From: Deltaproteobacteria bacterium
Lineage (GTDB): Bacteria > Desulfobacterota > Desulfarculia > Adiutricales > Adiutricaceae
NCBI GenBank assembly: GCA_031278475.1
Contig: JAITKK010000190.1
Span: 1 to 43,041, forward strand
Direction of reading: 5' to 3'
DNA length: 43,041 nt
The notes beneath the pieces were generated by a model, which did no database searches, had not been told where the DNA came from, and was given only the letters and a program-made list of their open reading frames with translations. Shown here in pieces: positions 1,419 through 39,924 of this stretch. The translations under genes were made by a program, and so were the position numbers. The number at the start of each line of letters is the position of its first letter. The first letter of the stretch is position 1.

Positions 1419-1437
1419 GTCGAGGGGGAAACCATGG

Positions 1438-1474
1438 GCCCGGGGGGCCCGGCCGGAGGCCGGGCCCCCCGGGC
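1438..1474 (+). repeat. Perfect GC hairpin 2 just ahead of permease ribosome-binding site
   Basis: A perfect 17-bp stem (1438-1454 with 1458-1474) is closed by a GGA triloop and made only of G and C. It ends six bases before the GAGGA ribosome-binding site of the permease (ATG at 1489). Only TTT follows within ATTTCC, so termination would be weak. A structure this stable beside the start codon should affect translation or protect the 3' end of the upstream cistron. Confidence 0.8.
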
Positions 1475-1488
1475 ATTTCCGAGGAAAC

Positions 1489-2757
1489 ATGCGAAAGATC
1501 GCGACCCTCGCGTCCCTGGCCGCAAGGAGCGCCTGGAACCGCCGCTTCACGCTCTTGTTGGTCACATTGTCCATAAGCCTTTCCACCATCCTGCTCGTGG
1601 GGATCGAAAGGGTGCGGGGCCAGGTGAGGGCGGGCTTCGTGCAGGCCATATCGGGCACCGATCTGGTGGTTGGGGCCAGGGGCAGCCACATCCAGCTCAT
1701 CCTCTATGCGGTCTTCCACATGGGGGGCGCCACCAACAACATGGGCTGGGACAGCGCCCAGGCCATAATGGCGAGGCCGGAGGTGGCCTGGGCGGTGCCT
1801 CTATCCATGGGCGACTCCCACCGGGGTTACCCGGTGGTCGCGACCACCAACGACTTCTTCACCCGCTTCCGATACCGCTCGGACGCCTCGCTCAGGATGG
1901 CCGAGGGCCGCGAGTTCGCGGACATCTTCGAGGTGGTCCTTGGCTCCGAGGTGGCCTCCCGCCTGGGCTACTCGGATGGCTCGGAGATAACCCTTACCCA
2001 CGGCGGCGACGTCCGGGGCATAGAGCACTCCGACAAGCCCTTCCTGGTGGTGGGGGTGCTGGCGCCCACCGGGTCGCCGGTGGACAGGTCGCTCTACATC
2101 AACCTGGAGTCCATGGAGGCCATACACGTGGACTGGCGGGGAGGGGCGCCCATCAGGGGCTTTTCGGTGGCCAAGGACCAGGTCCGCAGGTTCGACCTGC
2201 GGCCCAAGGCAATCACCGCCATGCTCCTGGGGCTCAAGGACAGGAGGTCGGTCTTCGCCCTGCAGAGGGAGATCCAGTCCTCCAAGACCGAGGCCCTGAG
2301 CGCGGTGCTCCCAGGGGTAGCCCTCGACCAGCTGTGGGGGCTCATAGGCGGCTGGGAGAGGGTTTTGGTGCTTGTGTCGCTGATGGTGACCTTCACCGGG
2401 CTCGCGGGGCTCTCGTCCACGATACTCGCGGGCCTTGGCGAGAGGCGCAGGGAGCTCGCGATCCTCAGGTCCACGGGCGCGAGCCCGCTCGACATCGTCC
2501 TCCTGATGGCCATGGAGGGCTTCTTCCTGACTCTCGCGGGGATAATGCTCGGGCTTCTTATATTGGGGATCCTGGTAGCGGCCCTCGCGCCCTGGATACT
2601 GGACTCCTATGGGATAGCCCTGGGGCTCTCGCCCCCCACGGCCATGGAGTGGCTCATAATCCTCGGCATACTCGCCCTGGGCGTGCTCACAAGCCTCATA
2701 CCGGCCTTCAGGGCCTACTTCCTGAGCCTGTCGGACGGGCTCAGCCCCACCACCTGA
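1489..2757 (+). CDS. FtsX/MacB-type ABC transporter permease (zinc-uptake cluster)
   Basis: A 422-aa inner-membrane protein. It has one N-terminal membrane segment (about residues 15-40, FTLLLVTLSISLSTILLVGI), then a periplasmic MacB-like core domain of about 250 residues. Three C-terminal segments follow, recognisable as VLVLVSLMVTFTGLAGL, FFLTLAGIMLGLLILGIL and WLIILGILALGVLTSLIP. The loop GERRRELAILRSTGAS is the FtsX-domain coupling region that contacts the ATPase. ATG 1489 was chosen because the family N-terminus begins there and GAGGA lies at 1481. With its partner ATPase and ZrgA it matches the Zur-regulated transporter seen in Pseudomonas and Vibrio. Four-segment FtsX permeases usually act mechanically on periplasmic partners rather than forming a channel, so the exact transport mechanism is uncertain. 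Confidence 0.88.
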   Translation: MRKIATLASLAARSAWNRRFTLLLVTLSISLSTILLVGIERVRGQVRAGFVQAISGTDLVVGARGSHIQLILYAVFHMGGATNNMGWDSAQAIMARPEVAWAVPLSMGDSHRGYPVVATTNDFFTRFRYRSDASLRMAEGREFADIFEVVLGSEVASRLGYSDGSEITLTHGGDVRGIEHSDKPFLVVGVLAPTGSPVDRSLYINLESMEAIHVDWRGGAPIRGFSVAKDQVRRFDLRPKAITAMLLGLKDRRSVFALQREIQSSKTEALSAVLPGVALDQLWGLIGGWERVLVLVSLMVTFTGLAGLSSTILAGLGERRRELAILRSTGASPLDIVLLMAMEGFFLTLAGIMLGLLILGILVAALAPWILDSYGIALGLSPPTAMEWLIILGILALGVLTSLIPAFRAYFLSLSDGLSPTT

Positions 2758-2805
2758 GGGCCCTTGCCCCGACAGGCGAAAGGACGGGACGGACAGGACA
2801 ACACG

Positions 2806-3411
2806 ATGCGCCCGCAACACGCAACAGCCCCCAAGGGTCATCCCGCACCCATCCTTCCCTTCCTCTTGGCCCTGCCATTGGCATTGCTCGGGGCCTTGGG
2901 GATCCCCTTCCAGGGGGGGGCCCTGGCCCTCGACAAGGCCGGCTACGAGGACAAGGGCTGGCTCATATGGGACGATCTTGTGGATCCTTCCTGGGATCCG
3001 GAGAAGATCTTCAAGGAACTCGGCATAGACCAGATGACGGACGACGACCCCAGGGCCGAGCAGGTCCTGGCCCAGTTCCTGGAACGCTGGAACAACGCCC
3101 CCATAAACCCCAAGATGAACGGGAAGCCCGTGAGGATTCCCGGGTTCGTGGTGCCGCTGGACTTCTCCGGGGCCGAGATGAGGGAGTTCTTCCTGGTGCC
3201 CTTCTTCGGGGCCTGCATCCACGTCCCGCCCCCGCCGCCCAACCAGATAATCCACGTGACCTCGGAGAAGGGCCTCAAAGGCATAGAGGCCATGGAAATA
3301 GTGTGGGTGTACGGGAAGCTCCTGACCGAGAGGTACGAATCCGGGGAGATGGGGGCGGCCGGCTACAGCATCCCCGCGGACCTTGTGGAGATATACAGGG
3401 AGGACGGCTGA
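2806..3411 (+). CDS. DUF3299 periplasmic protein of zinc-uptake cluster
   Basis: A 201-aa protein with a hydrophobic signal segment (about residues 16-40, PILPFLLALPLALLGALG) and a DUF3299 core. The core shows WDDL near residue 57, then VRIPGFVVPLDF and the family hallmark EFFLVPFFGACIHVPPPPPN, which contains a conserved Cys and His that could bind metal. The function of DUF3299 is not established, but it recurs next to ZrgA-type transporters (for example PA4066), which argues for a role in periplasmic zinc handling. ATG 2806 is preferred over an upstream TTG at 2764 because GGACAGGA precedes it and the signal peptide then sits at the N-terminus. It starts 48 bases after the permease stop and is likely in the same operon. 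Confidence 0.85.
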   Translation: MRPQHATAPKGHPAPILPFLLALPLALLGALGIPFQGGALALDKAGYEDKGWLIWDDLVDPSWDPEKIFKELGIDQMTDDDPRAEQVLAQFLERWNNAPINPKMNGKPVRIPGFVVPLDFSGAEMREFFLVPFFGACIHVPPPPPNQIIHVTSEKGLKGIEAMEIVWVYGKLLTERYESGEMGAAGYSIPADLVEIYREDG

Positions 3412-3538
3412 GAGGGGGATCCTTGACCGGGGCGCCCATGCAGGCCTGTTGCAATCCGCGCGGGCTTTTGCGAGAATGGTGCCTAGGGCAAGCTGCCAGG
3501 CATTGCCCAAGGCTAGCCAAGGCTAACCACGGTGGGAT

Positions 3539-4024
3539 ATGAACCTCAACAAAAGACAAGTGGACAAGTTCATGGCCGAGGCCGAGAAGCTCTGCCAGCT
3601 CGAAGGGACCCAGCTGACGGAGCTGCGCCGCATGATCCTCGAACGCCTCATAAAGGCCCCGGGCCCTGTCAAGGCCTACGACCTCATAGACAGCCTGAGG
3701 GTGAAGGGCCGCCGCATCACGCCGTCCTCCGTCTACCGCTCGCTCGAGTTCTTCATCCAGATAGGCCTTGTGCACCGGGTGAACGCCCTTAACGCCTTTG
3801 TCGTCTGCAACGACCACGGGTCGCACCACAACCCGGTGATCCTTGTCTGCCCGGACTGCCAGGCCACCACCGAGATAAACGACGAGGGCCTCTACACCAG
3901 CATCTTCAACCACATGGGGGCCCAAGCCTTCTTCGGGAAGGACGGCAGCGTGGAGATCCGAGGCCTGTGCAAGAAATGCGCTAAGGCCGAGACCAAGTCC
4001 AACGCCAAGGCCAAAACCAGTTAG
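3539..4024 (+). CDS. zur: Fur-family zinc-responsive repressor (Zur-like)
   Basis: A 161-aa Fur-superfamily regulator. The N-terminal winged helix covers about residues 10-85, with ITPSSVYRSLEFFIQIGLVHR as the recognition and wing region. The C-terminal dimerisation domain carries two CxxC pairs, CPDC (C104, C107) and CKKC (C144, C147), the usual structural zinc site. C90, H96 and H97 in VVCNDHGSHH match where Zur proteins place a regulatory zinc site, unlike typical Fur. Position at the end of a zinc-uptake cluster supports Zur over Fur or PerR. It is separated from DUF3299 by 127 bases, so it may have its own promoter; I could not identify a clear Zur box there. A terminator follows at 4056. 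Confidence 0.85.
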   Translation: MNLNKRQVDKFMAEAEKLCQLEGTQLTELRRMILERLIKAPGPVKAYDLIDSLRVKGRRITPSSVYRSLEFFIQIGLVHRVNALNAFVVCNDHGSHHNPVILVCPDCQATTEINDEGLYTSIFNHMGAQAFFGKDGSVEIRGLCKKCAKAETKSNAKAKTS

Positions 4025-4794: not shown

Positions 4795-6420
4795 TCAGGA
4801 TCTGAAGTCCTTGTAGTTCAGGTTCAGGCGCTTCATGCGCAGCCCCATGGACCTGCGGGTCAGCCTAAGATCCTTGGCCGCCTTGGAGATGTTCCCCCGG
4901 TGGCGCTTGAGCGCCTCGGATATCATCTCGTGCTCGATTGAGGACAGCCTTTCCTCGAGCCCGAGCGGCTCGGCGGCCTTGGGGGCCGCGACCAGCTTTA
5001 TGTGCAGCGGCAGGTCCTGGGGCTCTATGCTCTGGGCCTTCTTGTCCGCCATTATGACCGTGCGGTGGATAACCGCCTCCAGCTCCTCCACGTTCCCGGG
5101 CCAGTCGTAGGCGCGAAGTATCTCCAGGGCCATCGGGGACAGGGTTTTGAGGTTTTTGCCTGCATCCTCGTTGTAGCGTCCCAGGAAGTGCCTCGCGAGC
5201 CTGGGGATGTCCTCCTCCCGCTTTCGCAGGGGCGGGATGGTTATGGGGAACACGTTCAGCCGGTAGAAGAGGGCCTCAAGGAACAGCCCCTCGGCCACCA
5301 TCTCCCTGAGGTCCCGGCAGGTGCCGGCTATGACCCTTGCGTCCGGGGCCAGGGGCCCGGGCGGGAGCGCCTGGTCCTGGGACGGCTCCTGCAAGGCGTC
5401 CAGGAGCCTCGCCTGGAGCCCCAGCGGGCAGCGGTCTATCTCGTCGATGAAGATGCTCCCCCCGTCCGCGGCCCCCAGGAGGCCGCGGCAGGGGCCTGGG
5501 CCCTCGGAGCCCTCGGCCGCGGCAGGCCCGAGGAGCTCGGCCTCCAGGTGCTCGGGCGGGAACTCGGCGCAGTTGATCATCACGAAGGGGCCCATGGCCT
5601 TAAGGCCGTCGTAGTGGATGGACTGGGCCACGGTCTCCTTCTCCACGCCCTTCTCGCCGAGGATGAGCACTATCGTCTTGCGTGAGGCCACCTTGCGCAG
5701 CAGGAAGTACACCTCCTGCATGGCCGCCGAGCAGGATACCAGGTTGGAGGGGGAGTAGCGCTCCTTGAGCTCGTAGATCTCGGAGCTCAGGGTGCGCACC
5801 TTCTTCTCCAGCACCACGCGGTCGATGTTCTCCTCCATGTAGAGCCTCGCCTCCCCGGAGAAGAGGCTGGCCATGACGGAGAGGTGGGTCTCGTGCCTCT
5901 TGCGGGCCAAGGGGTCCGGGAAGTGGGACAGGGTGGTCATCGCGCCCAGGGCCTTCCCCTCCCTTGTTATGGGGACGGTGACCAGGGTCAGCCCCTGCTC
6001 GCCACCGAGGCCGGGGATTGCCTCCTTGCCGGAGTATCCCCCGAAGGGCCTGGGGCCCAGGTGCGGGACCTGGCCCCTCTTGGCGAGGGCCCCCTCGCCG
6101 GACAGGAAAGAGTCCCTGATGGCCTCCTCCTCCTCCCGGCCGAGGCCGGCCGAGCGGGAGAGGAAGAGCTTCCCGGAGTCGCCGTGGATGAGGCTCACCA
6201 TGGCCTTGGCGACGCCAAGCTCCTTTTTCATGTAGTAGAGCAGGGTGTCCAGGGCGGCGTTCATGTCGCCCTTCTCGGAGAGCAGCCGCCCGACCGTCAT
6301 GAAGAGCGATATGAGCCTCTCGCCCCCGGCCCTCAGGCCGAGGACGGAGAAAGCCTCCCCACGCCCCGTGGAGAGGGCATCCTCAAGGCCCCGGCCCAGT
6401 TGGCTCTGGTTCTCGTTCAA
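4795..6420 (-). CDS. NifA-like GAF-AAA-Fis regulator with degenerate sigma54-activation motifs
   Basis: A 541-aa protein with the NifA layout: a GAF-like sensor domain (about 35-195), an AAA+ domain (about 228-460) and a C-terminal Fis-type HTH (about 505-532, GNISKAAKDLRLTRRSMGLR). Walker B (SIFIDEID, 322-329), the YRLNVFPITIPPLRKREEDIP segment and WPGNVEELE are well kept. Two key motifs are not. Walker A reads GEKGVEKE (255-262) where active members have GESGTGKE, so the second glycine is Glu. The sigma54-contacting GAFTGA loop is replaced by PAAAEGSEGPGPCRG (299-313). It is therefore unlikely to remodel sigma54 polymerase in the usual way and may act like TyrR on sigma70 promoters, or only bind DNA. 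It starts with TTG at 6420, preceded by GGGGAAA and overlapping the stop of the upstream oxidase-like gene. Confidence 0.87.
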   Translation of the reverse strand: MNENQSQLGRGLEDALSTGRGEAFSVLGLRAGGERLISLFMTVGRLLSEKGDMNAALDTLLYYMKKELGVAKAMVSLIHGDSGKLFLSRSAGLGREEEEAIRDSFLSGEGALAKRGQVPHLGPRPFGGYSGKEAIPGLGGEQGLTLVTVPITREGKALGAMTTLSHFPDPLARKRHETHLSVMASLFSGEARLYMEENIDRVVLEKKVRTLSSEIYELKERYSPSNLVSCSAAMQEVYFLLRKVASRKTIVLILGEKGVEKETVAQSIHYDGLKAMGPFVMINCAEFPPEHLEAELLGPAAAEGSEGPGPCRGLLGAADGGSIFIDEIDRCPLGLQARLLDALQEPSQDQALPPGPLAPDARVIAGTCRDLREMVAEGLFLEALFYRLNVFPITIPPLRKREEDIPRLARHFLGRYNEDAGKNLKTLSPMALEILRAYDWPGNVEELEAVIHRTVIMADKKAQSIEPQDLPLHIKLVAAPKAAEPLGLEERLSSIEHEMISEALKRHRGNISKAAKDLRLTRRSMGLRMKRLNLNYKDFRS

Positions 6421-6884
6421 CTGTAGTATTTCCCCGTTGCGGACAGGATGTCCACCTCGATGATCCCCGTGGCCTTGACCTTGCCCGGGGGCAGCTCCCT
6501 CCCGAAGTGCTGCGGGGTGTACTTTTGGACGAACGCGTCGAGGACGATCAGCGCCCTCGCGGGCTCGGAAAGCATCCTCGCCTCGCCCTGGATGATCGCG
6601 CTCCTGAAGCGGGTGTTTGTCTCGCAGGCCTCATCGCCGTGGATGATGCCCCCGTCGGCCACGACCGTGAACGACACCCTGGGATCCCTTTTAAGGTTAT
6701 CGATCTTGGTGCCCTTGGGGTTCCCGTGGACGTAGATTTTGCCCTCAATGAAGACGAAGTGGACAGGGGTCACGTAAGGTCGCCCGTCCGGCGATATGCT
6801 TGCCAGGAACCCGGTAGGCACTTCCTGGAGCAAGAGTTCCGTCGCCTCCCTGTCTAGCTGGTGGTCGCGCATCCTAGGCTGCAT
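6417..6884 (-). CDS. Pyridoxamine 5'-phosphate oxidase-like FMN-binding protein
   Basis: A 155-aa split-barrel flavin protein of the pyridoxamine 5'-phosphate oxidase-like/NimA superfamily. The N-terminal motif GFLASISPDGRPYVTPVHF and the following IYVHGNPKGTKIDNLKRDP are typical of the FMN-binding half-barrel. HGDEACETNTRFRSAIIQGEA forms the central strands. Members bind FMN or F420 or reduce nitro compounds, and the substrate cannot be told from sequence. I chose ATG 6884; a TTG at 6920 lacks a ribosome-binding site. The stop overlaps the TTG start of the NifA-like gene (TTGA), so the two are translationally coupled and may work in one redox- or flavin-linked pathway. That link is inference. 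Confidence 0.85.
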   Translation of the reverse strand: MQPRMRDHQLDREATELLLQEVPTGFLASISPDGRPYVTPVHFVFIEGKIYVHGNPKGTKIDNLKRDPRVSFTVVADGGIIHGDEACETNTRFRSAIIQGEARMLSEPARALIVLDAFVQKYTPQHFGRELPPGKVKATGIIEVDILSATGKYYS

Positions 6885-6960
6885 CGGTGAATTGGACCTC
6901 AAAGTGTAAGATTTTTCCAATAATCATACATTTATGTGGGAATGCCCCGCATCCAGCCGG

Positions 6961-6995
6961 CTCCCCCGGGCGCCCCGCCGGGGCGCCCGGGGGAG
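6961..6995. repeat. Perfect 16-bp GC hairpin upstream of the oxidase-like gene
   Basis: The arms 6961-6976 and 6980-6995 are perfectly complementary around a GCC triloop and lie 76 bases upstream of the oxidase-like start. No T-run follows on either strand. It could be an operator-like palindrome, an mRNA leader hairpin or a terminator-like relic. It resembles the triloop hairpins at 1396-1474 in style, not in sequence. Confidence 0.75.
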
Positions 6996-7988
6996 GGGGG
7001 CTTGGGTCAGGCAACAGCCCTCTGAGATAGGAGCCATTTGGCAAAAGCATGGGATCCCAGGATGCCGGGAAGCCCTTCCCGGCGGGGTCTTGCGGCGAAT
7101 GCCGCGGATATCCAGCTTGCCCGTTGCCTGTATGGGAGCAAGGCCTGTGCCAACCGCAAAGGGCCTTTCGCAGACTTTTGGGTGCCCTCGGGACGCTTTG
7201 GGGCCTTTTGGGGCTTGTGGCAAGAAATGTACGCATTGCGTACAGTTTATTTTGCCACTCTTCAAACAGGCCAACAATAACCGGACAGCCCGCCCGCAAG
7301 AGAACCGCATCCCCGTGTCTCCGCAGCCATGTCGCGGCCCCCATGCTCATCCCCAATAGTGCCGCCGCCATGGTGCCGCAAGCATGGGGGGCTTTGCCAG
7401 CCTCTCTTGTGGGGCCCTGCACCCAAAATATTTCTTTCGGAGGATGCCCGAGCCCGCCATGGGTAAAAAAAAAAGTGGAAATGGGATGGAAAAAAAGAGA
7501 GAATAGAGAGTAGAGAGAGGGACAACTGCCTAGGGCAATCGTTTTTTTACCTTGCCAAAAGCCAAGGGACTCAAGCATTTTGGCATTGTCACAGCATTTC
7601 CGGGCATCCAGTAAAATTTTTACCTTTTGAATACCTTGTATTTTATGAATAATTTTTCAAAAAAATGTTAAATTATTCATAATTTTTCAATTGTATTTTA
7701 AAATGGCTTATCCGTACTGATTTAAAAATTTATTAGATAAAAATTTGCCATTTTTTTTCAAAAATGAGGCAAAAGTCACTACAAAAAGCCGGGACGTTCT
7801 GCAATCCGCCCAAAATTATTGCGCCAAGCCGCTTTTGCCGCTAGCGTCCTGGGGAAACTGCGGCGTTGAGGCCGGATAACGCATCTCATTTCCAATAAGG
7901 GCGTGAAAGCACGGCCATCTTGTCAAAAGGGACATGCCCCCGCATGGCCGGGTGCGTACGGCACCAAGGCACGGCCAATAACCACGAA

Positions 7989-8129
7989 CATGGGCTTGCT
8001 TCTTCGGAGCTGGGACATAAGCCCAATGCCTAAGGACATGGGCCGTTTCTTCGGTGCCAGGGCCTCAGCCAAGCCCAATGCCTAAGGCTCACGGGCATGA
8101 TTCTTCGGAGCTGGGGTCTCAGCCATGGA
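7989..8129. repeat. Degenerate ~50-bp tandem repeat, three copies
   Basis: Three diverged units share CAYGGGC, then TTCTTCGGAGCTGGG or a variant, then CAGCC and AAGCCCAATGCCTAAGG. They begin near 7989, 8038 and 8091, and the last is incomplete. Copies differ by substitutions and small indels, which suggests old duplication. Confidence 0.65.
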
Positions 8130-8170
8130 TTGGGAACCAAATATTACGCCAACCTGAGGGTTCGCCAACC

Positions 8171-8368
8171 CACGGGCTCGGAAGCCACGGAGCTTTTGGC
8201 AAGGGAAACCGGCCCCGGGCCTCTGGAAGCGGCTTCGGAACCTCGGGGCTTTTGTGGCAAAGTGGCCTGCCACGGGCTCGGAAGCCACGGAGCTTTTGCC
8301 ATGGGAAACCGGCCCTGGGCCTCTGGAAACGGCTTCGGAACTTCTGGGTTTTTCGGAAAAATGGCCTA
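8171..8368. repeat. 100-bp tandem direct duplication
   Basis: Copy 1 begins at 8171 and copy 2 at 8271, both with CACGGGCTCGGAAGCCACGG. They remain alignable without a gap through GGGAAACCGGCCC, CCTCTGGAA and CGGCTTCGGAAC to GGCCT near 8368. Copy 2 has diverged most at its end. Period is exactly 100 bp. Confidence 0.85.
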
Positions 8369-8920
8369 GATACGGTCTAAAATCAAAAATTCGATTTATT
8401 CAAAAAAGTGCCGACAGCCAACCTTCGTAGCTACGTAGGTTTGGTGGGCCACAATTTTTCGGAATGTTTTCAGGGTTTCGGGACCTTAGGGTTAATCCTA
8501 AAATCGCTTGTTTTTTGAAATGATAGGACTCTTCATGCTTTGATGCTCTAACTTTCGATTCCCAAGCCCACTACTATATATTGTATATAAATATTTTTTA
8601 TAAGCTATATGTGGGTTTTCGGATAAAACAGGCTAAAAATTCGCATTTTTATCAAGAAAAAAACAGATTTACATTGAAAAAAGCTCCGCATTTTTATAAA
8701 ATTAGAAAAAAAGCATGAAAAGTAAAAACAATAAATCGTCTCAGGCCTGTAAGGTAGAAAAATAAACACTACATATCATGAATCGATGGATTAATAGCAC
8801 TATATATTTACATTATATGCTAATTACACGGCCAAGGGCCGACTCCGCCAAGCCGCCCGGGGCGGCTAGCGGCTATGGCCCCCCTACCCAAGGTGTTTTC
8901 TAACTTTTATGGGGTTTCCT

Positions 8921-10282
8921 ATGAGTGAGGCTTTCGGACCCGACCCAAGATTCTCTCTTTTCATCCAGGCCCTAAGGGAAGGCAAGACAGTGGACAACTC
9001 GCGCAAAGCGTCGTCCCTGAACTGGAACAGCCTCTACAAGATGAAGAAAAGGAACGAGGCATTCCGCAACGCTTGGAACCAGGCGCTGATGGAGGGCGGC
9101 CGCAAGTATCCCGTCGAGGTGGATCCGAGGTTCGAGGCGTTCCTCAGGAACCTGGAGAAGGGGATGACCGTTGCGCACTCCATGGAGGATGCGGGCCTTT
9201 ACTGGAGGCGCCTCTACCTGCGGAAGCACAACGACCCCGACTTCACCAAGGCCTGGGACGATGCCATGATAACGGGCGGCAGGCATGTGTGCGACTCGGA
9301 TGACCCTCGCTTCGAGATCTTCATCTTGACCTTGGCGAAGACCAAGAGCATGAACGTTGCCTTGGCGAAGTCCGAGCTGGACTGCCGGAGCCTGTACAAC
9401 TACAGGCTCAAGAACAAAAATTTCCATGATCTGTACATCCAGACCCTGACCGACAACGGCATAACCTTCGTCTACGATGACCCCAGGTTCGACGTCTTCC
9501 TGGATTCCCTAAGGGCCGGGAAGACAATCAACGCCTCCATGCGGGAGTCCGCCCTCAACTGGAAGACGCTCTACACCTACAAGAACTCCAACCAGAAGTT
9601 CAAGGAGGCCTGGGATGAGGCGGTGGTAGCCGGCGGGCGCGTGCAGTCCAAGTTCAAGGCCATAACGCCCGAGTCCATACAGGTGTTCCTAGAGCGCATA
9701 GCGGAAGGGGACACCGTGAAGCAGGCCGCTCTCACCGCCGGGCTGACCCTCGCCAGCCTTTACAAGAGGAGCACGAGGGACCCGGAGCTCGAGGCTGCCT
9801 GGGAGGAAGCCTACGATAAGGGCAAGGCCAGGAACCTGAGGTTACGGGAGGAGACGGGCGTTTTCCTCAAGGAGCTGGAGGCGGGCCGCACGGTGAGCCA
9901 GGCGGCCAGGGTCGCTGGCAGGGACGTGACCACCTTCTACCGTCTGAAGAAGAGGGACGCCGAGTTCGCGGAAAAGTGGGTGGAGGTCGCCTCAAGGAGA
10001 AAGAGCAGCTACCCGAGGCGCAGGAAGAGCGAGCCCAAACCCGCTGTCGCAAAGGATGCCGATGATTCATCGGACCATGCCCCAGCCCTCTCCGACCACG
10101 CTACCCAGGATGATGCGTCGGGGAAGGCCATCGAGAGCGCTGACGCAGGCGCAAAGGGTGTCCCGGAGGCAAGTGTTGCGCCTAAGCCGCCGGTGGGATC
10201 CAAGAAGCCAAGGGGGCTTTTCGATCTATTGGACGGCGACAGGGAAAAGATACCCTGCCACAAGATGCCAAAGACAAACTAG
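8921..10282 (+). CDS. Protein of six tandem ~60-aa helix-turn-helix-like modules
   Basis: A 453-aa protein that I do not recognise as a named family. Residues about 8-365 are six consecutive modules starting near residues 8, 68, 128, 187, 250 and 311. Each follows a pattern like DPRFxxFLxxLxxGKT, xxAxxxAxL, xWxxLYxxK, then F/LxxAWxxAxxxGGR. Modules 5 and 6 (GDTVKQAALTAGLTLASLYK, GRTVSQAARVAGRDVTTFYR) look like homeodomain-like HTHs of transposase or small-terminase type. The predicted third helix differs in every module. A basic stretch (SYPRRRKSEPKP), an acidic/Ala-rich tail and RGLFDLLDGDREKIP end the protein. There is no enzyme domain, signal peptide or membrane segment, so a cytoplasmic nucleic-acid-binding role is inferred. 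ATG 8921 has GGGG six bases upstream; ATG 8909 is possible. It stands alone between AT-rich gene-free regions. Confidence 0.85.
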   Translation: MSEAFGPDPRFSLFIQALREGKTVDNSRKASSLNWNSLYKMKKRNEAFRNAWNQALMEGGRKYPVEVDPRFEAFLRNLEKGMTVAHSMEDAGLYWRRLYLRKHNDPDFTKAWDDAMITGGRHVCDSDDPRFEIFILTLAKTKSMNVALAKSELDCRSLYNYRLKNKNFHDLYIQTLTDNGITFVYDDPRFDVFLDSLRAGKTINASMRESALNWKTLYTYKNSNQKFKEAWDEAVVAGGRVQSKFKAITPESIQVFLERIAEGDTVKQAALTAGLTLASLYKRSTRDPELEAAWEEAYDKGKARNLRLREETGVFLKELEAGRTVSQAARVAGRDVTTFYRLKKRDAEFAEKWVEVASRRKSSYPRRRKSEPKPAVAKDADDSSDHAPALSDHATQDDASGKAIESADAGAKGVPEASVAPKPPVGSKKPRGLFDLLDGDREKIPCHKMPKTN

Positions 10283-11313
10283 GGCGAAAGTCCCTGATGA
10301 GGGCATGCGCGAAAGCCCAAGCCGGCTGTTAGGCTATAGTAGGGTATTAGAGTTAATGGGACCTTACGGGGTAGGGTATTCCTGCGCACAGCCACTTGAG
10401 AGAACCGCACTTGTGCCGGATGCATTGGCTTTTGCATAAATTCCAGAAACTTGGATGCCATTAAGGATATTTTGCGTATTGCGGTTGGATTTGTTGGCAA
10501 ATTATAGCTGTGGTAAAGTATAGTTTAAAATTTGGCAGCAAAGGGCCACGTAAATCATAAACGATTCGATTAAGTTCTCAAAAAAGTCATGCTCTGTTAA
10601 TGATCCCAAGAATGTTATAGGTATTTAAATTTGTCCCACAATGTTTGATCCCTCTTTTACTCTTCAGAAAATCCTCGAAACAGCCCACCTCCTACCAACA
10701 ATAATAAAATCACAAGCATAATATAATCAATTGCTGTTACGCTTAATCTATGAGCAATTAGCCGGGTATGCCATGTACTTATGAATCACAAGGCACTTGC
10801 GGAGATTAACCGGATTTCAACTGAACTTTATGTAATCTTCCAAGACTTGTGAGCATGGAGAGCATGGTGAGCGTGGAGAGTGCTAGAAGCTGCGACTTGG
10901 TTCTGAGGAAGTGTTGGGGAACCTCACATATGAATATTTACCTGAATTACCAAATATTATACTTTTAAATTGTTAAAAAAATCAGGGATTTTAATTATCT
11001 CAGCAGGATATAATGTGAATAGGCATGAGGCGAATCGATTTGCCAATTGTTGGATAGTTTGGAATTCTAACTCTTTCGCAATTTCGTGAAAATCAGATAA
11101 TTAGCCGATAATGTGTGTTGTTAAGCGGTTTGCGCAAGTTTGATTTGCATCAAGCGTTAAATATTATATATAATTTTGAAATATGTTCAAGATACTTGAG
11201 GCATATCAAATAATTTTAATAATTACAATTCTTAAGATGCGAGAAAAATATTGTTCTAAAAATACTTAAAATAGTTGACATTACCGCATGTTAAGGAGTA
11301 AAAGCGTAAAGTC
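10283..11313. other. AT-rich gene-free region before the cobalamin riboswitch
   Basis: About 1 kb with no credible gene on either strand. A short irregular GAGCATGGAGAGCATGG-type repeat lies near 10852-10882. A TTGACA at 11275-11280 followed 18 bases later by TAAAAG is a candidate promoter for the riboswitch transcript. The composition is far more AT-rich than the flanking genes. Confidence 0.6.
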
Positions 11314-11469
11314 TGCAAGGTGCACAATTGTGCCTAACAGGGAACCTCAATAAAAAGAGGACGAACCCTCCGCTGTATTCGGGAATTTCCCATCCAACTA
11401 AGCCACTGGTAATATTCTGGGAAGGCGTGGTGGGAGAGACGATCCGTGAGTCAGAAGACCTGCCTTGCA
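11314..11469 (+). ncRNA. Cobalamin (AdoCbl-class) riboswitch
   Basis: The closing stem P1 is TGCAAGG (11314-11320) with CCTTGCA (11463-11469). Hallmarks appear in order: AACAGGGAA, GAGGACGAACCCTCCGCTGT, the conserved GCCACTGG, CTGGGAAGGCG, and the 3' core GTGAGTCAGAAGACCTGCC. This is the Rfam cobalamin-riboswitch layout. It precedes btuB and an intrinsic terminator at 11547, so B12 binding probably promotes termination and shuts down B12 import. A possible TTGACA -35 box lies at 11275. Confidence 0.93.
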
Positions 11470-11546
11470 CTATTATATAGAATTTGCGCCAAAATATTAA
11501 AATTATTTGGTGGTATCGAACCAAGATTCAGGATAAAAATGGGAAT

Positions 11547-11875: not shown

Positions 11876-13843
11876 GTGATTAAACGTAAATTAGGGGTAT
11901 TGGGCATGGTGATGATATTTTCAGCCATCACCACTCTCATACCCACATTTCTCTCGGCCCAGACCGAGCTCGAATTGGATCCAACGCTTGTGGAAGGAAG
12001 GCTTATTGAGGAAAAGCTTTCCGCGGAACTAGCAGCTTACGGGCACAAAGTCAACATAATACAAGGGGAGACCATAAAAAAACTTGGGGTAAACGATCTG
12101 TCCCAGGTGCTTATGAAGCTCGTCCCTGGCATGGCATATGTCCCTCGCTCAAAAGCCGATTACGGCCGTTCAATTATGAACGGCTCGAAAAGGATTCTTT
12201 GGCTAGTCGATGGCATCAGGATCAACAATCGCTTATACGTAGATGCCTACATTGATGCCATAGGCATCCATATGATCGAGCGCATAGAAGTGTTGACCGG
12301 AGGCGAAGGACTCTTTTACGGCACTGAGGCCGTAGGCGGCGTGATTAACGTCATTACCAAAAAACCGGGCGAAGACTTTGGCGGTGAGGTTGGCGTTTCT
12401 TACGGCTCATACGGTTCATTAGACAGTTGGGCAAATATCGGAGGCACCATCAAAGGCCATAAATTTATGGCATTTGCAAGTTATGACAGCTCCGATGGAT
12501 ATGTTCCTTACAAAGAGGAAACCTTCAGCTATTACAACAACCCCCATCGCACCAAAAGGGCCTACGATAGACTGAATGTCGGCCTGAAATACTCCAAAGA
12601 GTTTGATCTTTCAGGCTATAGCAATCTATATGTGGGCATCCAGAGGAACAGCGGGACATTTGATTACCCATATCCCAATATGTATAAGGTCTATAACAAA
12701 CGGGATGAGTACATTGCCACACTCAAATGGGATCACGATGTCACACCCAACTACAGTTATTACATCAAGGCCTATTACCACTCTTGGTGGTCAGATTACA
12801 CCAGCATAATGGCCAATGGTGCTTACACCCGTGGTAAGCCAAGTTTCAATTGGGGTTACCAGGATTGGGGATTCAACTTCCTCAATAGCCTCCGTTGGGA
12901 TAGCGGTCATGAACTATTGGTGGGATTGGATTATCAGAACTATTGGGGAAAAGATGAATTTTCCGAGATTTCTCCCAATCATGAGCAGGTTTACGCAGGA
13001 TTTTTCCAGTTCAGGCCCCATTTTTCGTTCTGGGAGGATTGGAAACTGGCGTTTGGTGCACGATATAATTATATGACCGGCGACCAAGCGACGCATGACA
13101 CTTTGGTATGGAACGTAAGTTCGCTTCTCCCTATATTGCCTGGGGAAAAGCTGTTCTTCAAAACCAATATCGGCACCGCTTTCGTCCTTCCTGTCTTGGA
13201 TCACCTCTATGCCAACAATGATTACACAGTAGGCAATCCGAATATCCGCCCTGAGGAGATTTTCTCGGTGACCGCAGGATTTGGTGGCAGGAGCAAGTAT
13301 TTTGACTGGGATGTGGATTTCTTTTTCAATGAGACCACCGACAGAATCATAACGGGACCGCACCCCAGCGGCAAAAGCACGTATCTCAATGCGGAAGGCG
13401 ACAGCGTGGTCAAGGGTTTCAGCTTGGAAGGCACCCTAAAACCAATCGAAGGTTTGTCCTTTAGCGGATCTTTTACCAAAAACTACTATGAGATCCCTAG
13501 CGATGGCGATATCCGGAGCTTTGCCAAGCTCAGTGCCCAATGGGACGGCTATCTTGACGAATACGCCTATGGCATTGGCGTTTACAGCAACTACATCGGA
13601 AAAAGGGAATTCAAGCTTTCCGGTCTGCCGCCTATAAACGTCGGCGATTACTGGCTTGTGGATTTGAGGATGTATTTCAAGCCCACGCCGAAGTTAACCT
13701 TTACACTCGCACTCGAGAACCTCTTTAACCAGGAATACGCTTGGCACCTCTCCAGGGTCAACTATGCCGGTGCGTTACGACCGTTTGCCAACCCGCTTGG
13801 AAACAAGTTCGCCGTGACGGTGGGCGCAACCTACGAGTTCTAG
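11876..13843 (+). CDS. btuB: TonB-dependent outer-membrane receptor, vitamin B12 (BtuB-like)
   Basis: A 655-aa precursor with a signal peptide (about 1-29, ending LSAQ). A likely TonB box lies near DPTLVEG. The plug domain covers about 45-165 (VNIIQGETIKKLGVNDLSQVL, VDGIRINN, IERIEVLTGG, EAVGGVINVITKKPG). A 22-strand-type barrel follows, ending in LENLFNQEYAW and a C-terminal Phe (TVGATYEF). The length is normal for BtuB-like receptors. The riboswitch upstream and btuFCD downstream specify cobalamin or related corrinoids. The start is GTG 11876 with AAGGAGA six bases upstream. Base composition is clearly more AT-rich than btuFCD and most of the window, which suggests a separate origin for the riboswitch-btuB block. 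Confidence 0.92.
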   Translation: MIKRKLGVLGMVMIFSAITTLIPTFLSAQTELELDPTLVEGRLIEEKLSAELAAYGHKVNIIQGETIKKLGVNDLSQVLMKLVPGMAYVPRSKADYGRSIMNGSKRILWLVDGIRINNRLYVDAYIDAIGIHMIERIEVLTGGEGLFYGTEAVGGVINVITKKPGEDFGGEVGVSYGSYGSLDSWANIGGTIKGHKFMAFASYDSSDGYVPYKEETFSYYNNPHRTKRAYDRLNVGLKYSKEFDLSGYSNLYVGIQRNSGTFDYPYPNMYKVYNKRDEYIATLKWDHDVTPNYSYYIKAYYHSWWSDYTSIMANGAYTRGKPSFNWGYQDWGFNFLNSLRWDSGHELLVGLDYQNYWGKDEFSEISPNHEQVYAGFFQFRPHFSFWEDWKLAFGARYNYMTGDQATHDTLVWNVSSLLPILPGEKLFFKTNIGTAFVLPVLDHLYANNDYTVGNPNIRPEEIFSVTAGFGGRSKYFDWDVDFFFNETTDRIITGPHPSGKSTYLNAEGDSVVKGFSLEGTLKPIEGLSFSGSFTKNYYEIPSDGDIRSFAKLSAQWDGYLDEYAYGIGVYSNYIGKREFKLSGLPPINVGDYWLVDLRMYFKPTPKLTFTLALENLFNQEYAWHLSRVNYAGALRPFANPLGNKFAVTVGATYEF

Positions 13844-13854
13844 TCAGATGTTTT

Positions 13855-13898
13855 TTAGTCGTGAAAGTGTCGGGCGAGCCCCGGCACTTTCACGGCTA
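13855..13898 (+). terminator. Strong stem-loop after btuB
   Basis: CGTGAAAGTGTCGGG (13860-13874) pairs with CCCCGGCACTTTCACG (13879-13894), with flanking TTAG/CTAA able to extend it. No long T-run follows, so it could also be a processing or stabilising hairpin that separates btuB from btuFCD expression. Confidence 0.65.
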
Positions 13899-14038
13899 AT
13901 CCCCCTTTGTTAACACCAAAACCTTGGCACACTTGGAATTTTGTTTTAATTTGGTTTTTTAAAATGTTACAAAAGCAAATAAGTTTAATTATTTTTTCAA
14001 CAATTGCCATTAATAACGGATAATACAGTGTGCCCACC

Positions 14039-14992
14039 ATGCCAAAAACCATATGCTCAATAATAATATGTGCGATTTTCATGGCAGGCTTCGCCCAGGC
14101 CGGCACTTCCGTCACCATCACGAATTACAATTATGATCTAAGCGAAAACGTCCAGGTGTTTGCCAAAATCCCTAAAAGGGTTATTAGCACCAACGGGTCC
14201 GCGACGGAGCTTCTTCTCTCGCTCGGATTGGAAAAGCGCATGCTAGCGACCGCCTACCTGGACAACCCTCCCAGCCCCGAGCTCGAGGATGCCTACGGCA
14301 GGATCCCGGTCCTCTCAAGGCTCTACCCCGGGAAGGAACAGGTTTTGGGTTTGGAGCCCGACATGCTGGTCGGCTGGCAGAGCGCGTTCGCGCCCAGGGT
14401 CTTGGGGGATCCGTCCTACTGGAACCGCCTTGGTGTCGGGACCTTCATACTCAGGGATTCCTCCGCCCTCCCCAAGAGCTTGGGAAACATCCATGCCGAC
14501 ATCCGCGACCTCGGAAGGATTTTCCGGGTGGAGGAAAGGGCCGAGGAAATCCTCCGCTCCTTGGACTCCGAGCTCTCCGGGCTGAAGGCCAGGGCGGCCT
14601 TGAGGGAAGGCGATAGGCTAAGGGCGCTCATCCTTGAGTGCCTCCCCGGCGGCCGCTTGAGGGCTTGGGGCGACAACTCGACCCCAGGGCGGATGCTCCA
14701 GGCCATCGGCGCCGAGAACGTCTTTTCCCTCACGGGCGACCAAAACAAGGAGGGCATCGTGAAGGCCGATCCCGACGCCGTCATATTCATCTACATGGAT
14801 AGCACTTTGCGCGACACCCTCAGGCTCATGGAGGATTTCAGGACGGACCCCATCCTCTCTTACACAAAGGCCTCAAGGACCGGCCGGCTGGGCCTTGTGC
14901 CACTTTCGGAAAGCTACTGCCCGGGAGTGCGCTTGGGCATGGGGCTTAGGCGCATGGCCGGGATCCTTTTTGGCGACGGGCCCCAAGGCTAG
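14039..14992 (+). CDS. btuF: Periplasmic corrinoid-binding protein of ABC importer (BtuF-like)
   Basis: A 317-aa class III periplasmic binding protein with a signal peptide (about 1-22, ICSIIICAIFMAGFAQA). The N-lobe begins PKRVISTNGSATELLLSLGL, typical of BtuF/FhuD-type proteins. The long connecting helix lies near LGNIHADIRDLGRIFRVEE, and the C-lobe includes LRAWGDNSTPGRMLQAIGAEN. It should deliver corrinoid from BtuB to the BtuCD importer. ATG 14039 is used; a GTG at 14030 would add three residues. It lies about 195 bases after btuB, beyond a strong hairpin, so it may be partly uncoupled from btuB. Composition is GC-rich, unlike btuB. Substrate assignment rests on the riboswitch and btuB; iron-siderophore proteins share this fold. 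Confidence 0.87.
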   Translation: MPKTICSIIICAIFMAGFAQAGTSVTITNYNYDLSENVQVFAKIPKRVISTNGSATELLLSLGLEKRMLATAYLDNPPSPELEDAYGRIPVLSRLYPGKEQVLGLEPDMLVGWQSAFAPRVLGDPSYWNRLGVGTFILRDSSALPKSLGNIHADIRDLGRIFRVEERAEEILRSLDSELSGLKARAALREGDRLRALILECLPGGRLRAWGDNSTPGRMLQAIGAENVFSLTGDQNKEGIVKADPDAVIFIYMDSTLRDTLRLMEDFRTDPILSYTKASRTGRLGLVPLSESYCPGVRLGMGLRRMAGILFGDGPQG

Positions 14993-16910: not shown

Positions 16911-17237
16911 GGAAGCCTGGAAGGAGCTATGCGCCTGGGGGGCCATTCAAGGGCGGTCCCTGTTTGCCTCGTTTGTCTTGGAACCGGTAAGCGATATTGC
17001 CTTTTCCAGCAATCGGCTTTTCCGGCATCATCCCATTTTCGCCTGATAAGCCGCGATTTCGCGCATTGTGTTTTTGCCCTGTTGGGTTCCGTTGTCATCG
17101 ATGCGACGGGAGAAGGAAGGGCGAAAAGGGGTATTGGCAGGGCCTTGGCAGACGCCGTTTCCCATTCCCGGCATTTGGGCTTGCGGATGGCGCCCGTTGC
17201 CTTCCAAGGCGGAAAGCCCGCGGCGGGGGAAAAGAAG

Positions 17238-17270
17238 ATGCCGGGCCCGGAAGGCGCCCGGCATCGTTTT
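17238..17270 (+). terminator. Probable btuFCD terminator
   Basis: ATGCCGGGC (17238-17246) pairs with GCCCGGCAT (17256-17264) over a 9-nt loop and is followed by CGTTTT. It is the first T-tailed hairpin after btuD on the plus strand, though 327 bases downstream. Confidence 0.6.
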
Positions 17271-17274
17271 CCCA

Positions 17275-17306
17275 GGGCCCCGCCCGCGGATGCGGGCGGG
17301 GCCTTT
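17275..17306. terminator. GC-rich palindrome between convergent genes
   Basis: GGCCCCGCCCGC (17276-17287) pairs perfectly with GCGGGCGGGGCC (17292-17303) around GGAT, followed by TTT on the plus strand. The core arms match those of the hairpin at 38700-38726. It probably acts as a second, possibly bidirectional, terminator. Confidence 0.55.
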
Positions 17307-17364
17307 CCGGCATTGGCCGCGTTGGGTTTCCGGGTATGCCCCGGACAGGCATTTTACCGGGGAT

Positions 17365-19014
17365 CTACTTGGGGGATGCCCCGGGAAGGGGGCCGTAGAG
17401 CGTGTCCGCCATGAAGTCGAGGTCATCCTTGCCTGGAAGCGGCAGGGCCCCAACCTTGGTCCCGAATGCCATGGCCTTCGGATCCTTGGGGTCGTAGGCC
17501 GGCCATTCGGCCCGGGTGGGGGAGGGATCCCCCTGGTTCGGGTCGCCGGTCTTTATGAAGTTCACCCAGCGCGAGCGGATGTCCTCGCCCAGCCTCAACT
17601 CCTCGGGTGTGGAGGTGTATCCCATGAAGCCCATGTTCCCGAACACCAGCGGGAGCTCCGAGGTGTGGAAGGCCCCTGCCAACCCCTCCTTTTCCGATTC
17701 CTTGTTGCTGTATTCGAAGTTGTAGAGGTACACCTCGCCGAACCTCGAGTGCAGGTCGGCTACCCTCTTGGCCCCGGCAGAGAACAGGGTGAAGGTCATG
17801 AAGCGCCTGCCGCTTGCGAGGCCCTGGTCGTCCTTGCCGGCCGGGAAGCGGCCCCAGAACGCCTCGGAAGCCCTGGGCCCCGACACGAACAGGGTCATGT
17901 CCTCGAGATCGGATTCCGTGCAGCCCGCGAACAGAAGGCTGTTGGCCTCGTCGCGGTTGTAGCCCATGAGTATTTTCACCCTGTTGATGTCGCCGGATGC
18001 CAGGGCGCCCTGCGGGTCCCTCGGGAGCACCTTGCCGTCGAAGACCGGCGCCAGGGAGAAGGGGGAGCTGCGGCAGGTCGCGCCGAAGGGGCACAGCCTC
18101 TCCAGCACCTCGGGCGGCACGGACCTCAGGGCCTCGAGCCCCTGCGGGTCGTCCTTCAGGCCCAGCACCTCCATTATGAGGGAGCCCTGGTCCATGGCGG
18201 GCCCCAGCTTGCCGTGGCTGAAGTTGCTGGGCCAGTTCACCATGGAGTAGAAGGTGCCGCTCTCCATTATCGCGCCCCGGAAGAGCCCCTTGGCGAGCGG
18301 GCTCAGGATCAGGGCCGAGACGCTCATGGAGCCTGCCGACTCGCCGCCTACCGTGACCTTGGCCGGGTCCCCGCCGAAGGCCGCTATGTTGTCCCTCACC
18401 CACTCAAGGGCCTTTATCTGGTCAAGGATGCCCCAGTTGCCGGTCGTCCCGTGCAGTTTGAGGGTCTCGCGGCTTGCCAGGAAACCCAAGGCACCCAGCC
18501 GGTAGTTCATGGTCACCACCACGATACCGGCCTTCGCGAGCGTCGTCCCGTCGTAGAGCGGCTGGCTGCCCGCGCCTATGGCGAAGCCGCCCCCGGGGAT
18601 GAACATGTACACCGGCAGCCCGTCGGAGGCTTTGGCGCCTTCGGGCACCCAGATATTGAGGTTGAGGCAGTCCTCGGACGGGGGCGGGAGCACCGAGGTG
18701 TCCCTGAAGTAGCTCTTGCCGAGTGGCTGCGGGGGTATGGGGCCGAAGGCGTCCGCTTCCCTCGGCTCCGTCCAGGGTTCCGGGTCCTTGGGGGGCGCGA
18801 AGCGCAACACCCCCACCGGGGGAGCGGCGAAGGGGATCCCCTTGAAGAGGGTGACGCCGTCCCCGGGGACGCCGATGACGGGCCCGGACTTGGTGCCGAC
18901 CCTTGGGCCCGAGGGCGCCTGGGCGAGGGCCGGGCTCGTGGCCGCAAGGGAGAGTGCCAGCGGCAGTGCCGCAAGCGCAAGAAAGATGGCCGTGAATATG
19001 GGTGGGAATGCCAT
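17365..19014 (-). CDS. Secreted type-B carboxylesterase
   Basis: A 549-aa alpha/beta-hydrolase of the carboxylesterase type B family. A signal peptide covers about 1-32 (FTAIFLALAALPLALSLAAT, then PALAQA). Family signatures are GIPFAAPPVG, SEDCLNLNIWVPEG (about 113-126), the oxyanion hole GGGF (141-144) and the nucleophile elbow GGESAGS with Ser226. The rest of the triad is Glu356 (GYNRDEAN) and His450 (FHTSELP). All catalytic residues are present, so it should be active on an ester in the periplasm or outside the cell; the substrate is unknown. ATG 19014 was chosen for the AAAGGAGA site upstream and a clean signal peptide; the frame opens earlier at 19074. It appears to be monocistronic. Confidence 0.92.
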   Translation of the reverse strand: MAFPPIFTAIFLALAALPLALSLAATSPALAQAPSGPRVGTKSGPVIGVPGDGVTLFKGIPFAAPPVGVLRFAPPKDPEPWTEPREADAFGPIPPQPLGKSYFRDTSVLPPPSEDCLNLNIWVPEGAKASDGLPVYMFIPGGGFAIGAGSQPLYDGTTLAKAGIVVVTMNYRLGALGFLASRETLKLHGTTGNWGILDQIKALEWVRDNIAAFGGDPAKVTVGGESAGSMSVSALILSPLAKGLFRGAIMESGTFYSMVNWPSNFSHGKLGPAMDQGSLIMEVLGLKDDPQGLEALRSVPPEVLERLCPFGATCRSSPFSLAPVFDGKVLPRDPQGALASGDINRVKILMGYNRDEANSLLFAGCTESDLEDMTLFVSGPRASEAFWGRFPAGKDDQGLASGRRFMTFTLFSAGAKRVADLHSRFGEVYLYNFEYSNKESEKEGLAGAFHTSELPLVFGNMGFMGYTSTPEELRLGEDIRSRWVNFIKTGDPNQGDPSPTRAEWPAYDPKDPKAMAFGTKVGALPLPGKDDLDFMADTLYGPLPGASPK

Positions 19015-19720
19015 GGGGGGTCTCCTTTCCGGCCGGCCGCAAGCCTTTCCCGGGATGTCCGTCATTTCGGCCAATGGCCGCGCCGCAGGCGGAAACCACC
19101 GGGAACATGCGGTCGGAAGCTTCCGGGCGGGCGAATCGGCGGAAGATGCCAGGCGCGCGGTTCGCTGATTGGTTTGTTGGGTTTTGGCGTTGTCTTATGG
19201 CAACTGTCGCTTTTTCATTCTTTCAAATCAAAGTTCCGCTTGCAAATTCCAGGAAACAAGCCCCGGCGATTTCGCCGAAGGCCCGATGCCAAGGTTGCCT
19301 CTTATTTTAGGGAACATCGTGAAAGCGGCCCACAATTTGGATTGAATTCTATATTTGATGAAAATACAAGGTTTTTGGGGCTTTTCCCATAACAAAAAGC
19401 AGGGCAATACGGCCTTTCAAAATAATTTCTTGATAATAGATATTTTTGATGCCCGGCGATTGACCGCGAAACCCGGGCCGAACCACCCAACCCTATGATG
19501 TTTGGCGCGATACCTTGCGGCAGGGCAGCCGGCATGTCCTTTTCCGGTCCCAGGCACCGCAAATGTCCGGGCATGGGTTTCGAGTCAGGCAATGGTTGGC
19601 TGGCCCGATGCCGCCTTCGATGCCGTCCGCGAAAATCCCCCTGGGTTTTGCCAATCCCCAAGGCCATGGCGCGCCCGAGGAAGTTGGGCGCCGAATCGCC
19701 TATTTGGTTGTTAGGGGGAT
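19015..19720. other. Gene-free spacer between permease and esterase genes
   Basis: About 700 bases upstream of the esterase and downstream of the NCS2 permease, both on the minus strand. I see no gene, RNA or convincing terminator. Bases 19330-19450 are AT-rich and are the likeliest place for the esterase promoter. Confidence 0.5.
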
Positions 19721-36178: not shown

Positions 36179-38726
<2,548 letters not shown>

Positions 38727-38793
38727 TCCTGGTTATCAAAGGGAATGTCCTTGGCGCGGCTTGCGGCGCCATGGGTCATGAGGGCCTTTCCGC

Positions 38794-39924
38794 TCACTCT
38801 TCCTCGGCCGGGGCCATGATGGTGAGGATGCCGAGATAGCCCGGATCCTGGTCGCCCGAGAGCACCGCCGGGCGCTTGTTGTCTATTATGTTTATCCTCA
38901 GTTCCTTGCTCTTCATGGTGGAGATGGCGTCCAGGAGGTGCCTGGGGTCGAAGCCGAAGCTAAGCTCCGGGCCGCTGTGGCTCACGGTCAGGCTCTCCTC
39001 GGACTCGCCCACCTTGGAGTTCTTGCCGGACAACGTGAGGGAGTCCTCGCCTATGCGGAGGTAGACCACCCGGACCTTGTCGTCGAAGATCTTGCTGACC
39101 CTCTTGAGGGAGTCGCTGAAGTCCTCCCGCTTCACGACTATGGGGTGCCCCGCCTCGTCCGGGATCAGGACGTGGTAGTTGGGGAACTTGCCGTTGAGGA
39201 GCCGCATCACAAGCAGGGTGTTGCCGGTCCTGGCCACCAGGTTTTTGGCGTCGACGCCCAGGGAGACCGCAAGGGAGTCCTCGGCCAGGGACTTGAGCTC
39301 GGAAAGGCCCTTGCGGGAGACCAGCACGCCCTCGTCCAGGAGCAGGCCCCCAAGGTTTTCCTCGGCAAGGGTCGCGATGTTCAGGCGGCTGTTGTCCGTG
39401 GACACCAGCTTCAGGGCCTCGTGGTCGCCGACCTGTTCCTTGACCCAGAAGATGCCGGCCAGGTTGTAGTTGGTGTTGCCCCCGGCAACCGAGTAAATCG
39501 TCTTGTTTATGGAGTCCACCAGGGCCGCCCCGGGGAACTCGGTGAAGGTGACCGCCCCGGTGTCCATGGTCTTGGGGAACTCGGTGGGGGAGATGCCAAG
39601 CAGGTCGGAGTGATAGTAGTCGGTCTTGACCCTGAGCACCAGGTTCTCCCGTTCCTCCAGGGTGAGGGTGGCCCCCTTGAGGGAACCTATTATGTCGGCG
39701 AAGGGCTTGGCCGGGACCGTTATGGCCCCCTCCTCCAGGACGTCGGCCTCTATGGAGCACTGGAAGGTCACCTCCAGGTCGGAGGCCGTCAAGGTGAGCA
39801 GACCCCCCGAGGCCTCGATCAGCACGTTGGACAGAATCGGCATGGAAGTGAACTTGCCGGCGATGGACGTGATGTGGGTGAGGTCCTTTTGCAGCTCTTT
39901 TATGTTCGCCATGGCTTTAAGCAT
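38794..39924 (-). CDS. dnaN: DNA polymerase III beta sliding clamp
   Basis: A 376-aa clamp made of three repeated folds. It begins with an N-terminal MLKAMANIKELQKDLTHITS and has the first-domain block PILSNVLIEASGGLLTLTAS. The second has LVSTDNSRLNIA and the third NGKFPNYHVLIPDE. It ends PGYLGILTIMAPAEEE, close to the usual motif (YVVMPMRL) but divergent, with an acidic tail in place of the common M-R-L end. The clamp tethers polymerase III to DNA. AGAGGGA lies before ATG 39924. dnaA and recF, often neighbours, are absent here. Confidence 0.96.
   Translation of the reverse strand: MLKAMANIKELQKDLTHITSIAGKFTSMPILSNVLIEASGGLLTLTASDLEVTFQCSIEADVLEEGAITVPAKPFADIIGSLKGATLTLEERENLVLRVKTDYYHSDLLGISPTEFPKTMDTGAVTFTEFPGAALVDSINKTIYSVAGGNTNYNLAGIFWVKEQVGDHEALKLVSTDNSRLNIATLAEENLGGLLLDEGVLVSRKGLSELKSLAEDSLAVSLGVDAKNLVARTGNTLLVMRLLNGKFPNYHVLIPDEAGHPIVVKREDFSDSLKRVSKIFDDKVRVVYLRIGEDSLTLSGKNSKVGESEESLTVSHSGPELSFGFDPRHLLDAISTMKSKELRINIIDNKRPAVLSGDQDPGYLGILTIMAPAEEE

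Follow-up and report, generated by a model that had tools for sequence, protein, structure and literature searches.

A lineage-restricted bacterial protein of six tandem helix-turn-helix modules related to phage terminase small subunits, and its possible role as a reader of a long DNA site

Eukaryotic Myb-type proteins carry two to three tandem repeats that resemble helix-turn-helix (HTH) domains, every repeat having a recognition helix of its own. In phages, the terminase small subunit (TerS) bears a single HTH module at the N-terminus, followed by a C-terminal region for oligomerisation and large-subunit binding. The crenarchaeal Cbp1 and Cbp2 are small proteins in which two or three tandem HTHs, derived from domain duplication, read an extended asymmetric site, and experiments have shown that Cbp1 places its three HTHs one after another on the CRISPR repeat (PMC10883916). 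A gene with a comparable plan and six modules is found in a deltaproteobacterial genome (GCA_031278475.1; G000), in a window that comprises the whole stretch of 43,041 nucleotides analysed from contig JAITKK010000190.1.

The open reading frame at 8909-10282 of the forward strand is uninterrupted and encodes 457 residues when counted from its first ATG. The second ATG (8921) is the more plausible start codon on sequence grounds, since GGGG lies 6 nt before it and the ATGGGG....ATGAG layout is kept in the congener G001. The gene is present as one copy in the genome. A sequence-only reading of this DNA had described the product as six tandem modules of about 60 residues, and this description is borne out in two ways: a profile built from the other five modules recovers each one, with E-values from 1.4e-7 (module 3) to 1.3e-21, as against best E-values per module of 0.017-0.73 with 1000 shuffles per module, and AlphaFold2 predicts six HTH folds. 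In the predicted structure each module has four helices, three of them forming the HTH, with a pLDDT of about 85-90 and linkers of 7-12 residues between modules, and the chain is disordered from about residue 368 to 457; the pTM is 0.35 for the whole array and 0.50 for modules 4-6 alone, the relative placement of the modules not being fixed by the model. The starts of helix 3 quoted earlier for the six modules (LNWNSLY, LYWRRLY, LDCRSLY, LNWKTLY, LTLASLY, RDVTTFY) are exact, and the recognition helices carry a net charge of +2 to +4 each. Domain and profile searches of the protein returned no enzyme domain, in line with what had been noted. The features are listed in Table 1.

Table 1. Features of the array locus and copies of the conserved element found upstream of the three-module genes in genus g7 (residues refer to the 457-residue reading).
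Feature	Position	Strand	Residues	Remarks
NifA-like sigma-54-dependent regulator, divergent neighbour	4795..6420	(-)		neighbour in genera g1, g7, g8
Long intergenic region upstream of array gene	6421..8920	.		single copy in genome
Six-module HTH-array gene	8921..10282	(+)		ATG 8921 likelier start; other in-frame ATG at 8909
Module 1, type A	8939..9121	(+)	11-71	recognition helix WNSLYKMKKR at 9023-9052
Module 2, type A copy	9122..9298	(+)	72-130	recognition helix WRRLYLRKHN at 9203-9232
Module 3, type A copy, most diverged	9299..9478	(+)	131-190	recognition helix CRSLYNYRLK at 9383-9412
Module 4, type A copy	9479..9661	(+)	191-251	recognition helix WKTLYTYKNS at 9560-9589
Module 5, type B (second module of three-module relatives)	9662..9844	(+)	252-312	recognition helix LASLYKRSTR at 9749-9778
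Module 6, type C (third module of relatives)	9845..10021	(+)	313-371	recognition helix VTTFYRLKKR at 9926-9955
Disordered C-terminal tail, weakly conserved	10022..10279	(+)		disorder predicted by AlphaFold2
g7 element copy	L021:4828-4890			upstream of three-module gene
g7 element copy	L022:5919-5980			upstream of three-module gene
g7 element copy	L024:12858-12919			upstream of three-module gene
g7 element copy	L025:5825-5887	(-)		upstream of three-module gene
g7 element copy	L020:1974-2036	(-)		upstream of three-module gene

The kinship of the modules with TerS, suspected from the letters, is supported by statistical matches in both directions. The array protein matches PHROG 4044 (phrog_4044, terminase small subunit) at 2.2e-26 over five stretches, the best of which covers profile positions 24-72 of 180, i.e., the N-terminal HTH only, and the same profile is matched by all five array homologues tested. 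In the reverse search, the array-module profile picks up TerS-like proteins both within the same bacterial family and on 15 viral contigs. The viral matches reach E-values down to 1e-15, calculated over a small set, and each of these proteins has exactly one module, which in most cases is followed by a TerS-like C-terminal part. Pfam returns weak matches to HTH_29 (3e-6) and Sf6_terminase (1e-4), which likewise point to the terminase type, and Foldseek a weak match to Sf6 gp1 (probability 0.5-0.6); the small size and flexible linkage of the modules account for the weakness of the fold searches. As judged from these comparisons, the module corresponds to the HTH at the N-terminus of phage TerS. 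The array protein itself is not a terminase subunit: the C-terminal region of TerS is absent and no DTLLIFLLK-like segment is found in the tail, the genes identified in the window include no recognisable terminase large subunit, and a TerS-type neighbourhood, with a terminase large subunit or phage structural genes, was not found at the array loci.

The protein had also been taken for an orphan. Within one termite-gut family, however, 13 of 37 genomes, this one among them, and 4 of 11 genera carry homologues, which refutes that view. No homologue was found in the 26 other genomes of the class, and a sample of 345 genomes of the phylum gave none beyond this family. The named records are termite-gut type Deltaproteobacteria MAGs, and the family is probably Adiutricaceae, which has been described in termite guts (PMC9137090). 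Homologues with another module count do exist: six modules are present in G000 and G001, and three in all the rest. In the module tree, modules 1-4 of G000 and G001 share a group with the first module of the g7 and g8 three-module proteins (99/97; 99/98 in a larger tree), while order and alignment identify modules 5 and 6 with the second and third modules of those proteins, and between the two six-module proteins the modules pair mostly position by position. The simplest history suggested by these relationships is an expansion from A-B-C to A-A-A-A-B-C, with three A copies added before the split of the two species of the genus. The three-module proteins of genus g6 are more distant and may be either orthologues or a separate array. 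That the gene is part of a mobile element or a phage was rejected, as tblastn gave no match in phage or plasmid records and a DNA search none in plasmids, the phage similarities of the array being confined to single-module TerS-like genes. The array gene is a resident, lineage-restricted chromosomal gene.

The surroundings of the gene, previously called gene-free, are broadly so, with no recognisable gene over 2.5 kb on the upstream side and about 1 kb on the downstream side, but a cobalamin riboswitch (11301-11481; Rfam RF00174, 90 bits) follows, and after it the genes of a TonB-dependent receptor and of a periplasmic binding protein (11876-14992), together an ordinary B12 or corrinoid uptake locus. 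The neighbourhood is stable over genera g1, g7 and g8, in which the divergent NifA-like regulator lies alongside, and in g1 and g7 glycosyltransferase and CobB-type genes are also near. The regulator is not an obligate partner of the array, since it also exists in array-less genomes and, in g6, apart from the array. Two long open reading frames of the window, 1434-3542 (702 aa) and 17068-19392 (774 aa), have no Pfam match at 1e-4, and the former has relatives next to the array in both G001 and G008. Elsewhere in the window gyrB and dnaN adjoin at 36179-39924 and dnaA is on another contig (C126) of the same genome, so that the usual dnaA-dnaN-gyrB cluster appears to be split; because of this position of dnaA, no origin-linked function is claimed despite the presence of dnaN and gyrB.

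The promoter of the array gene, and any operator, are expected in the intergenic region that precedes it. There, at 8170-8369, a GC-rich unit of 100 bp stands twice in tandem (84% identity), and a search of the genome at E 0.01 gave no further copy. Dispersed repeats are discarded as targets, as the upstream 1.4 kb is single copy and the 100-bp direct repeat is local. Between genomes the upstream intergenic DNA is hardly alignable, save for one block present in all five g7 carriers, with the consensus CGGCTCAAAAAACTCTGGAATACGATCCGAATCTGTTTTATAAGG, a length of about 45 bp (~45-63 bp) and a beginning roughly 90-400 bases before the start codon. A sequence model of this element finds exactly one strong copy per g7 carrier genome (3.3e-16 or better), the same five copies having built the model, so that only the absence of further copies is new information; nothing else falls below E = 0.09, and the g7 genome in which the array gene was not found has no strong match. 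A coding leader peptide is disfavoured by even variation over the codon phases (6/14, 5/15, 5/14) and by a stop in G014, and no convincing RNA structure was seen, with only one pair changed on both sides. The element could be the array protein's own long operator or, given its TATAA end, a promoter conserved for another reason. Searches before the array genes of G000, G001 and G008 did not find it, and there a different site would have to be assumed; no upstream element common to G000 and G001 was found.

Between the six-module proteins of G000 and G001 about half of the residues are identical, and identity is higher in the recognition helices (41/60, 68%) than in the other helices (95/198, 48%; Fisher p = 0.008), the recognition-helix sequence of each module being retained position by position between the species. 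Conserved, positively charged recognition helices are what selection on DNA contacts would leave, and we infer from these features that the array protein binds DNA. The reading that we favour, and consider somewhat probable, is that of a resident DNA-binding protein in which TerS-type modules in series read one long asymmetric site and which probably regulates itself. An HTH module of the TerS type, minus the C-terminal remainder, was multiplied in tandem, and the modules would lie in series along the DNA, by analogy with Cbp1 on the CRISPR repeat (PMC10883916), their differing recognition helices jointly reading the site. The protein would probably bind an extended operator upstream of its own gene and set its own level, for which the g7 element would be the putative target of the three-module form, and a few further sites may also come under its action, whether regulatory or locally architectural; the six-module protein would read a longer, different site than the three-module form. 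Of the long or repetitive DNA site proposed earlier, a long site, here taken to be asymmetric, is made plausible by the element of about 45 bp in the sister genus g7, and a repetitive one is not supported, both the upstream region and the g7 element being single copy. A more far-reaching version, in which a phage packaging HTH has become a modular reader whose site changes in length and sequence with the number and identity of the modules, with one dedicated long site per genome and a module-to-base correspondence in a natural, extensible array, seems to us rather doubtful.

The absence of any regulatory or ligand domain, together with the charged recognition helices and the disordered tail, would also suit a protein of nucleoid or chromosome architecture that binds DNA broadly and with low specificity, additional modules serving mainly to raise avidity. 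Avidity alone, however, would not require that module-specific recognition helices be kept across species, and the homologous g7 gene is accompanied by one dedicated element, so that we regard such a role as unlikely. It is also conceivable, and slightly less probable, that the TerS-type modules serve phage control, by occupying packaging sites or competing with TerS and thereby blocking or biasing the packaging of invading or resident phages, as the g7 genomes also hold genuine single-module TerS genes. Nevertheless, the array stays at one syntenic place over the three genera and away from phage genes, unlike most defence genes, and its modules stand apart in the tree from those of TerS in the same genomes, with weak support. 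Still more improbable is a helical repeat protein that binds RNA or protein and whose HTH folds no longer touch DNA: the g6 homologue lies immediately upstream of tex, the gene of an RNA-binding transcription accessory protein, but helix 3 is still positively charged and the most conserved element. A CRISPR-repeat binding protein in the manner of Cbp1/Cbp2 is highly improbable in spite of the shared tandem-HTH plan and of the best PDB sequence match, to 2lvs, a CRISPR repeat binding protein (weak, with E 0.015 and 0.032 and a Foldseek probability of 0.23), as Cas1 was found in only one of the nine carriers searched (G006) and in none of G000, G001, G007, G008, G013, G014, G019 and G020.

The array is a lineage-restricted variant of known things, TerS-type HTHs and tandem-HTH readers, and its interest lies in the module count, in the traceable expansion from three to six modules and in the candidate site for the three-module form. 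It would illustrate plainly how a component of phage packaging can become a gene of the host, and the six-module array could allow one to test how stringing HTHs together lengthens and changes the DNA sequence that is read. Phage TerS (phrog_4044; PF20901 Sf6_terminase; Sf6 gp1, PDB 3hef) share with it the HTH and a subsequent helix with the (D/N)PxFxxxWxxA signature, but they have one module plus a C-terminal region, typically with DTLLIFLLKxxxPxxY, whereas the array has six or three modules. Myb-type repeats, likened here by general description, differ in being eukaryotic and in their repeat signature. In comparison with Cbp1/Cbp2 of Crenarchaeota (PDB 2lvs), the array is bacterial, has up to six modules, shows weak sequence similarity and occurs mostly, among the carriers searched, without Cas1. 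Both consist of tandem HTH modules with little else, and on this likeness of plan Cbp1/Cbp2 appear to be the closest known working analogue of the array.
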